Shown here piece after piece: positions 50,276-53,048 of a stretch of DNA of 64,000 bases. Within the stretch, counting starts at the first letter, position 1. Every line of letters starts with the position of its first letter. Source of the DNA: Actinomycetota bacterium. GTDB lineage: Bacteria > Actinomycetota > Actinomycetes > Nanopelagicales > Nanopelagicaceae. The translations under genes were made by a program, and so were the position numbers. The notes under the pieces were generated by a model, which made no database searches, was not told the origin of the DNA, and was given only the letters and a program-made list of their open reading frames with translations. The DNA lies in assembly GCA_009704505.1 (NCBI GenBank), contig WLEB01000002.1, positions 1 through 64,000 on the forward strand. Direction: 5' to 3'.

Positions 50276-50854
50276 TTAAATCGTCGCTTCTATAGGAGTG
50301 CGACGAAGGTGAACAAATCCTGCTATTGCTAAGAGAAGAAACAATAAACCGGCGGCAAAGGCTGCAATCGCTGCATAACCAGCAATTACTCCCATAGTTC
50401 CAAAGGCATATGCCTGAAGCAGCATTCCGCGAAGAGTGTTTCCCATAAACAAAGTTTGGCGAAGATCTGCATACTTTGTAATCGTCGCAACATCAGTACT
50501 TCCCCCACGGACTAATCCCATATATGTCCCTGATACTTCAGAGTATGTGGAAGGTTTACCTGTAACGGCGATAGATGAGCCTTTCATGTGTTCCCAGATA
50601 TAAAGGTCTGAGTAATCGCGGGCCATTTCACCAGTGTTGACTGTTTTACCTGCCCATTTTGTGAGCTGTTCTTTTGTATCTGCAGGCAAACTATCTTCCG
50701 CAGGAAATGCAATATTCTGATTTTCCAGTTGGGTTTTTACACTCTCATTTGCAAATGAGGCTCCAAAATTAAGAAGTCCTGCAAATGTGAACAAAAGAAG
50801 TGCAAGTCCAAGTCCAACATAAGAAACAATCTTGTCAAAAGTTCTACGATTCAT
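50276..50854 (-). CDS. Hypothetical membrane protein, two predicted TM segments flanking an extracytoplasmic domain
   Basis: ATG preceded by AAGGAG; N- and C-terminal hydrophobic helices. Confidence 0.75.
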   Translation of the reverse strand: MNRRTFDKIVSYVGLGLALLLFTFAGLLNFGASFANESVKTQLENQNIAFPAEDSLPADTKEQLTKWAGKTVNTGEMARDYSDLYIWEHMKGSSIAVTGKPSTYSEVSGTYMGLVRGGSTDVATITKYADLRQTLFMGNTLRGMLLQAYAFGTMGVIAGYAAIAAFAAGLLFLLLAIAGFVHLRRTPIEATI

Positions 50855-50887
50855 CTTTCTCTCCTTCATAGGTTGTTTTCAAAAACA

Positions 50888-50904
50888 TTGATCGAAGCGA
50901 TCAA
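50888..50904. promoter_or_regulatory. Perfect dyad upstream of membrane-protein gene
   Basis: TTGATCG-aag-CGATCAA. Confidence 0.5.
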
Positions 50905-51080
50905 CACAGCCCATGTTTACTAGGCCCAACAACCTTTAAATTGAAATTTAGGTGGGGTTAGCACTCGCAGATGAGCGCATGAGTGTCTGCACTCAATCTC
51001 CGTGCGGAATTAGGTAAAGAGCTATTGGTTATAACGGCGAGTAAAAATCTGAATACAAAATAAATTAAACCTAAATGAAC

Positions 51081-51401
51081 CTAGTCAATATGTCGATTAC
51101 ACATTCCTTGACCATCAGGACCAACCTCAAAATGGCTACATGGCATATTCAACTTATCAAAGGCTTGGTCGCCATAGTGAGCTCGATATGCCAGGGCAAG
51201 CAAAACCCGTAAGTTCGTTTCGGAATCGGATTTAATTCCAAAAACCTGCGCACTTCGACTCACAGTATTTTCGATCACTTTTTCATTGTGTGAGGTCTCG
51301 GTTGCAATCACAGCATTTGATTTGCCCTCACAAAGTAGTTCCAGTACAAGCCTTTCAAAAGGAGTTAACTCTCTTGTTGAAATTCTGATATTTCTGACCA
51401 T
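51081..51401 (-). CDS. Orphan LuxR-type HTH protein with Cys/His-containing tail
   Basis: LTPFERLVLELLCEGKSNAVIATETSHNEKVIENTVSRSAQVFGI; tail PCSHFEVGPDGQGMCNRHID. Confidence 0.75.
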   Translation of the reverse strand: MVRNIRISTRELTPFERLVLELLCEGKSNAVIATETSHNEKVIENTVSRSAQVFGIKSDSETNLRVLLALAYRAHYGDQAFDKLNMPCSHFEVGPDGQGMCNRHID

Positions 51402-51474: not shown

Positions 51475-52218
51475 ATGAGTGAAATCTTGAGAAAGCAAGA
51501 AGGCAATATCCTCGTTTTAAGTTTTAATCGGCCCGCAAAGATGAATGCTCTGACTCGATCAATGTATGCAGGCTTGGCAACAGGACTCAATGAGGCTGCG
51601 GGGGATTTTGGGATCAGAGCTGTGATCTTGACCAGTGAAGATCAACACTTCACTGCAGGAAACGATATTTCAGATTTTATGAACAACCCACCTACGAGTG
51701 AATCCTCTGAAGTTTCGCAGTTCCTTGAATCTTTGCTCAATTTTCCTAAGCCACTAATTGCAGCAGTAAAGGGCAATGCAGTCGGCGTAGGAACAACGAT
51801 GTTGCTTCATTGCGATGTTGTAGTTGCCAGTCCTTCGGCCAAGTTTTCGATGCCCTTTGCATCGCTAGGTTTAGTGCCAGAGGCAGGATCAAGTTTTCTT
51901 TTCCCACAGTTAGTTGGTTATCAAAGAGCTGCTCGAATCTTTATGACAGGGGAGAGCTTTGATGCACCATCAGCGGTGGAAATGGGTTTGGTTACTTCAA
52001 TTGAAAACGACCCTATTAATGAAGCCATGAAAATTGCGCAGCAAATTGCAGAACAGCCTCCGCAAGCGATCATTAATACAAAGGCGCTTCTTAAAGCCAA
52101 ATCACATGACGCAGTTGCTGCAGTCATGAAAGCTGAATTTGAAATCTTTGCAATGTCTCTTCAATCCGAAGAAGCCATGGAAGCTTTCATGAAATTTATG
52201 TCTAAGAAGGGTAAGTAA
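51475..52218 (+). CDS. Enoyl-CoA hydratase/isomerase family protein
   Basis: FNRPAKMNALTRSMY; HFTAGNDISDF; KGNAVGVGTTMLLHCDVVVAS. Confidence 0.92.
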   Translation: MSEILRKQEGNILVLSFNRPAKMNALTRSMYAGLATGLNEAAGDFGIRAVILTSEDQHFTAGNDISDFMNNPPTSESSEVSQFLESLLNFPKPLIAAVKGNAVGVGTTMLLHCDVVVASPSAKFSMPFASLGLVPEAGSSFLFPQLVGYQRAARIFMTGESFDAPSAVEMGLVTSIENDPINEAMKIAQQIAEQPPQAIINTKALLKAKSHDAVAAVMKAEFEIFAMSLQSEEAMEAFMKFMSKKGK

Positions 52219-53048
52219 TGTCTCTATCAGGAAAACGCATCTTCATAACTGGCGGTTCACGTGGAATAGGTCTTGCAATTGCATTAAGGGCGGCAGCAGA
52301 TGGAGCCTCAATTGCTATCGCAGCAAAAACAGCGGATCCAAATCCAAAACTACCTGGAACTATTTTTACTGCCGCAGCCGAGATTGAGGCAGCTGGCGGT
52401 AAAGCACTGGCCCTTCAATGTGACATACGTGATGAGGTGGCAATTGAAGAGGCGATAAAGAAAACAGCAGATGCATTTGGTGGAATTGATATTGTAATTA
52501 ACAATGCAAGTGCTATTAACCTCACCAAAACTGATCAGACACCTGCCAAACGATTTGATTTAATGTTTGATGTAAACGTTCGAGGTACTTTCCTTACTTC
52601 ACAAGCAGCTCTTCCGCACCTACGACAGTCGGCAAAGGATGGCAGAAACCCACACATTCTTAATCTTTCACCTCCGTTATCAATGAAACCAATCTGGTTT
52701 AAAAATCATGTTGCATACACCATGGCAAAATATGGAATGAGTATGTGTGTTCTGGGCATGGCAGAAGAGTTCAAACGCGATGGGATTGCGGTAAATGCTC
52801 TTTGGCCGCGAACTGTGATCGATACTGCAGCTCTTCAAATGATTCCAGGAATAGACGCATTGGCTGGTCGAACCCCACAGATTCTTGCAGATGCAGCGCA
52901 CATCATCTTAAATAGAGATTCAAAAGAGTGCACAGGAAATTTCTTTGTCGATGATCTACTTCTAGCAAGTGAAGGAATTACTGATCTCGAGAAATACTCA
53001 GTTACTCCAGGCACTACTGATTTCCTACTCGATTTCTTTTTAGACTAA
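52218..53048 (+). CDS. SDR-family oxidoreductase (HSDL2-like)
   Basis: FITGGSRGIGLAIALRAA; VINNASAINL; YTMAKYGMS. Confidence 0.92.
   Translation: MSLSGKRIFITGGSRGIGLAIALRAAADGASIAIAAKTADPNPKLPGTIFTAAAEIEAAGGKALALQCDIRDEVAIEEAIKKTADAFGGIDIVINNASAINLTKTDQTPAKRFDLMFDVNVRGTFLTSQAALPHLRQSAKDGRNPHILNLSPPLSMKPIWFKNHVAYTMAKYGMSMCVLGMAEEFKRDGIAVNALWPRTVIDTAALQMIPGIDALAGRTPQILADAAHIILNRDSKECTGNFFVDDLLLASEGITDLEKYSVTPGTTDFLLDFFLD

Follow-up and report, generated by a model that had tools for sequence, protein, structure and literature searches.

GerE of Bacillus subtilis, a protein with a role in sporulation, consists of a single GerE/LuxR helix-turn-helix (HTH) domain and has no Cys/His tail comparable to the one considered here; it also belongs to another lineage, with another operator, than the regulator described below. 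DevR/DosR, a hypoxia/dormancy response regulator termed OsdR in Streptomyces, likewise carries a LuxR-type HTH, but it additionally contains a receiver domain and requires the kinase DevS. Its half-site is GGGAC: the OsdR consensus is AGGGCCGATCGGCCCT (PMC5069765), and GGGAC-N4-GTCCC forms the core of the DevR/OsdR box. PedR (Synechocystis ssl0564) is a redox-sensing, HTH-only LuxR regulator that binds RWWTRGGYNNYY and relies on C80 together with thioredoxin (PMC13421787). In this small, receiver-less protein, the signal is carried by one cysteine, C80, and no conserved CxH...CxxH tail is described for it in that paper (PMC13421787).

The window analyzed here, a stretch of 64,000 nucleotides from an actinobacterium of the Nanopelagicaceae (contig WLEB01000002.1, positions 1 to 64,000), encodes a 106-aa regulator that shares the receiver-less, HTH-only form of GerE and PedR and the LuxR-type HTH of DevR. 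HTH-only LuxR regulators are already known from GerE and PedR; the conserved CxH...CxxH tail sets the present protein apart from them. A literature search found no paper on this acI regulator and, among open-access papers, no HTH-only LuxR regulator with a conserved C-terminal CxH...CxxH cluster. The best explanation of the locus, and one considered probable, is a one-component LuxR/GerE regulator that fills, in a streamlined lineage, a role like that of DevR, in which the tail would act as a metal or thiol switch and paired palindromes would serve as operators.

The regulator and its relatives

The regulator gene lies on the minus strand at 51081–51401, with its ATG at 51401 and its stop codon at 51081–51083, and the plus strand of the same interval has stop codons throughout. 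A previous sequence-only reading had named this interval and a 106-aa product without giving a strand; interval, length and sequence stand, including the tail PCSHFEVGPDGQGMCNRHID, which matches exactly, and the strand is minus. In a scan of public genomes, with one genome per species, 48 relatives with 60–86% identity were found in records for Planktophila, IMCC19121 and uncultured or metagenome-assembled actinobacteria. Candidatus Planktophila is placed in Candidatus Nanopelagicales, the order name for the relatives having been deduced from the record names. True members are present in 83 of 108 good-quality Nanopelagicales (acI) genomes, a count from which weak paralogue matches at 1e-8 to 1e-11 were removed. 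Outside the order, the sampled genomes of the class yielded one clear relative only (L079, genome G423), which is without the Cys/His tail altogether, and a search of viral contigs found no homologues. By sequence comparison, the ORF is a real gene, conserved across the order. At one locus (L043, a single assembly), the tail is frameshifted after QS, probably through a sequencing error or recent decay.

The HTH core, as delimited by AlphaFold, Foldseek and an entropy table, comprises approximately residues 12–51 (51249–51368, minus strand). The Pfam GerE family (PF00196) matches residues 12–61 of the window protein with E=1.3e-4, slightly below the curated cut-off, and is matched by 26 of 26 aligned family members (best 7e-9); an NCBIfam search of the window protein gave weak matches only, mostly to response regulators. 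The AlphaFold model contains helices at residues 14–24, 29–36, 40–53 and 64–76 (pLDDT of about 70–90), and Foldseek matches it to GerE, which stands high in this fold search, the DosR C-domain, LiaR and NarL. In a sequence search of the PDB, the only matches are GerE (1fse, the best) and the DosR C-domain (1zlj, the second). The four-helix HTH and the PF00196 match place the regulator in the LuxR/GerE HTH superfamily. Across 96 distinct sequences, the recognition helix (H38–R49) is almost invariant, specifically at H38, K41, E44–T46, S48 and R49, and C24, also within the HTH, is retained in 95 of 96.

Domains and residues typical of related classes were looked for as well. The 106-aa chain has no receiver domain of the kind found in NarL/FixJ response regulators including DevR/DosR, with 11 residues preceding the HTH, and no autoinducer-binding N-terminal domain as in quorum-sensing LuxR proteins. 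WhiB-like proteins have four conserved cysteines that hold an Fe-S cluster; here the conserved cysteines are C24, C88 and C101 only. The earlier proposal of an N-terminal GerE-like HTH without a receiver is upheld by Pfam GerE, AlphaFold and Foldseek, among which AlphaFold predicts the HTH fold whose absence would have spoken against it, and the proposed order, with the HTH first and a Cys/His cluster last, also holds.

The Cys/His tail

The tail spans residues 88–106 (51084–51140, minus strand) and, on sequence comparison, has the pattern C88-x-H90-x10-C101-x2-H104. C88 is present in 94 of 95 sequences, H90 in 92 of 95 and C101 in 93 of 94; G97 stands out too, and most remaining positions vary among the 96 distinct sequences, ligand conservation being far above that of the surroundings. 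The fourth His follows C101 as CxxH (+3) in 78 of 93 sequences, as CxxxxH (+5) in 11 and as CxxxH (+4) in 1, and is absent from 3. Conserved ligands as expected of a CxH...CxxH hairpin are thus found, 90 of 93 sequences having a His three to five residues after C101. Variable Cys/His residues had been named as grounds for abandoning the idea of a ligand cluster, grounds that do not apply because C88, H90 and C101 are nearly invariant across the order. AlphaFold models the tail with low confidence (pLDDT of about 50–60) and short strands at 91–93 and 99–101.

The conserved tail looks like a metal site whose last ligand is mobile, and it may bind a metal or respond to redox state. It would form a small beta-hairpin with a metal, most likely Zn, or serve as a thiol/metal switch for DNA binding. 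For haem ligation, one of the roles first suggested, there is no specific support. The Rieske [2Fe-2S] motif has the same ligand order, CxH...CxxH, with a spacer of about 15–17 residues. With four invariant ligands looked for at that spacing, the regulator differs in its x10 spacer, in a fourth ligand that is not invariant and in the lack of a Rieske fold; a Zn site or thiol switch suits the tail better, given the 10-residue spacer and a last His that shifts or is missing in some members.

It is possible, at some distance from being probable, that the tail plays a purely structural part, as a Zn site or a dimer clamp; the protein would then be a constitutive regulator like GerE, its activity set by how much of it is present and not by redox or metal. 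GerE, the best PDB sequence match, is likewise an HTH-only LuxR protein and lacks any sensor domain, and four ligands within 17 residues plus a shifting fourth His fit a small Zn hairpin. Since three members are without the fourth His and L079 is without the tail, the tail may indeed be structural rather than sensory. Two indirect observations suggest a signal instead: the near-absolute conservation of C88, H90 and C101 within a variable tail and the DevR-linked target discussed below. Rather doubtful is a metal-free thiol switch, in which disulfides of C88 and C101 (or C24) would set dimerization as in PedR, which is likewise HTH-only and is regulated through thioredoxin and an intermolecular C80 disulfide (PMC13421787). 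The near-invariance of C24 is in keeping with such a switch; however, the equally conserved H90 and the usual C-terminal His would be superfluous for a plain disulfide.

Paired palindromes and the adjacent membrane-protein gene

The putative target of the regulator is the gene for a 192-aa, all-helical membrane protein on the same strand (50276–50854, minus). Its listed ORF starts at 50869; the Shine-Dalgarno sequence and conservation indicate that the start is probably 50854. Divergent from the regulator are a gene of the enoyl-CoA hydratase family (51475–52218, plus strand) and, behind it, one for an SDR oxidoreductase (52218–53048, plus strand), both in conserved synteny. At the majority of loci, the regulator is divergent from this pair, and the membrane gene comes next on the regulator's strand. 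One locus (L081, G128:C1:805000-817000) has a tandem duplication of approximately 1.1 kb that takes in the regulator along with the beginning of the membrane gene, whose first copy is cut short by a stop. No Pfam or NCBIfam family was found for the membrane protein; its structural model is confident, with long helices, and a structural search with it gave no meaningful PDB match. Hyp730 (PMC7856521) was excluded as a homologue, being Rv1234-like with beta strands. Among the 108 good genomes, regulator and membrane gene occur together in 72, the regulator alone in 11, the membrane gene alone in 4 and neither in 21, a co-occurrence that could be partly due to joint deletion of neighboring genes.

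Two operator-like palindromes lie between the two genes. Palindrome 1 (50981–50994; minus strand GAGTGCAGACACTC) lies 140 bp before the start codon of the membrane-protein gene, and palindrome 2 (50953–50966; minus strand GAGTGCTAACCCCA) is 28 bp from palindrome 1. At almost every locus, the stretch between regulator and membrane gene contains one or two GAGKG-CTAG-CMCTC palindromes, spaced 27–28 bp (29 cases) or 37–39 bp (29 cases) apart, the two spacing classes differing by one helical turn. A matrix of the palindrome scores at least 14 in 72 of 74 loci with adjacent regulator and membrane gene, compared with 0.07% of shuffled sequences and no site in 335 kb of flanking DNA. Because this matrix was trained on the same sites, a second version was built from one set and applied to other genera, where the best scores were 9.2–20.7; 14 genomes that carry the membrane gene and lack the regulator scored -4.5 to 3.0, and the palindrome was absent from all 14. 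In genus g11, where the regulator does not precede the membrane gene, the palindrome lies approximately 54 bp before the regulator's own start.

From these comparisons, the two sites in the window are likely operators, and the regulator very probably controls the adjacent membrane-protein gene through them. A regulator dimer would bind each GAGKG-CTAG-CMCTC palindrome, and the two dimers would sit adjacent on the same helix face, upstream of the -35 region of the membrane gene; given that position, the regulator would probably act as an activator. The palindrome centers would lie approximately 50 and 80 bp before the guessed transcription start of the membrane gene, for which a possible -10 element (TAGTAAACAT, 50913–50922, minus strand) was picked out by conservation alone. 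In one genus, the regulator apparently acts on its own promoter. In g11, the regulator is followed at three loci (L088, L089, L094) by a different membrane protein of approximately 100 aa, and at these loci and L152–L160 the palindrome precedes the regulator itself.

The sequence-only reading had chosen another site for a binding assay (EMSA), the dyad TTGATCG-N3-CGATCAA at 50888–50904. In relatives, hairpins of differing sequence occupy this place, with five of six consensus pairs changed on both sides and pairing kept, a covariation that excludes the dyad as an operator; it is best read as a hairpin in the transcribed leader of the membrane-protein mRNA (minus strand). The hairpin lies directly 5ʹ of the Shine-Dalgarno sequence of the membrane gene, and its structure is kept across genera.

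That the palindromes instead serve another regulator, or are terminators or RNA hairpins, while the LuxR-like protein acts elsewhere, is improbable. T-rich stretches do follow some second palindromes, and the CTAG-centered 12-mer also occurs elsewhere in the genomes, often inside coding regions. However, in contrast to the pairs of the leader hairpin, no covariation is seen between the paired palindrome positions 4 and 11 (Fisher p=0.54), which rules out an RNA stem, and the motif tracks the regulator, being missing from all 14 targets without it and preceding the regulator gene in g11. A search for a genome-wide regulon using the 14-mer with one mismatch was rejected, as its yield did not exceed that of a reversed-pattern control, and no regulon is claimed because exact 12-mers elsewhere lie partly within coding regions. 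The notion of a truncated response regulator decaying into a functionless remnant, to which the missing receiver and the existence of related full-length receiver-type proteins might point, is refuted by strong purifying conservation over many genera, the near-invariant recognition helix and conserved synteny.

Further palindromes were seen at other positions. At six loci that showed no membrane gene (L032, L033, L042, L044, L046, L161), a good palindrome lies approximately 118 bp upstream of the regulator, within the 5ʹ coding region of the crotonase, where several read as VLTL/VLAL codons; these may be chance or an operator. At L209 (G237) and L214 (G136), genes encoding similar secreted proteins are each preceded, at a distance of approximately 170 bp, by a single palindrome and are a possible second target of the regulator. 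The out-of-order relative L079 (G423) has a different palindrome, GGTCAC-N5-GTGACC, just before the start codon, upstream of 4998.

The membrane protein and DevR/DevS in other Actinomycetes

Of the 114 genera of the class that were sampled, the window's own order included, 41 have a homologue of the membrane protein. At 9 of 20 membrane-gene loci outside the order, DevR- and/or DevS-like genes lie within a few kb, mostly together with an Acg-like nitroreductase gene. GGGAC-N4-GTCCC (at least 9 of 10 positions) was found in 15 of 21 upstream regions outside the order versus 0.86 expected, whereas permuted half-sites gave 0–2 and Nanopelagicales 0 of 77. These DevR-like boxes and the Nanopelagicales palindromes share a 5-4-5 layout and a matching position upstream of the same membrane-gene homologues; they differ in the half-site, which is GAGKG rather than GGGAC in the palindromes. 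At L217–L236, all from other Actinomycetes, membrane-protein homologues with DevR-like boxes are often found beside DevR/DevS and nitroreductase genes. The membrane-protein homologue is a possible uncharacterized member of the DevR/OsdR regulon.

Direct descent of the regulator from DevR is unsupported, its HTH being nearer to another response-regulator lineage. As some larger relatives also retain a DevS-like kinase, the comparison favors a similar role over common descent, and any "replacement of DevR" by the regulator would be an analogy of role only. The signal would be related to redox or oxygen, because the target homologues adjoin the DevR/DevS hypoxia system and have DevR-like boxes in the same place. 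A bolder version of this reading, offered tentatively and with limited confidence, is that the 106-residue chain merges the roles of DevS and DevR: a CxH-x10-CxxH hairpin, holding an Fe-S cluster or redox-active Zn/Fe, would sense redox or oxygen, and the protein would bind re-specified operators before a membrane gene linked to hypoxia or dormancy.

The acI actinobacteria rank among the most abundant bacteria of fresh water, and to our knowledge little is known of their gene regulation. For a small regulator from this group, a sensor site, operators and a target can now be predicted, and an uncharacterized actinobacterial membrane protein is linked to the DevR/DevS hypoxia system of other orders.
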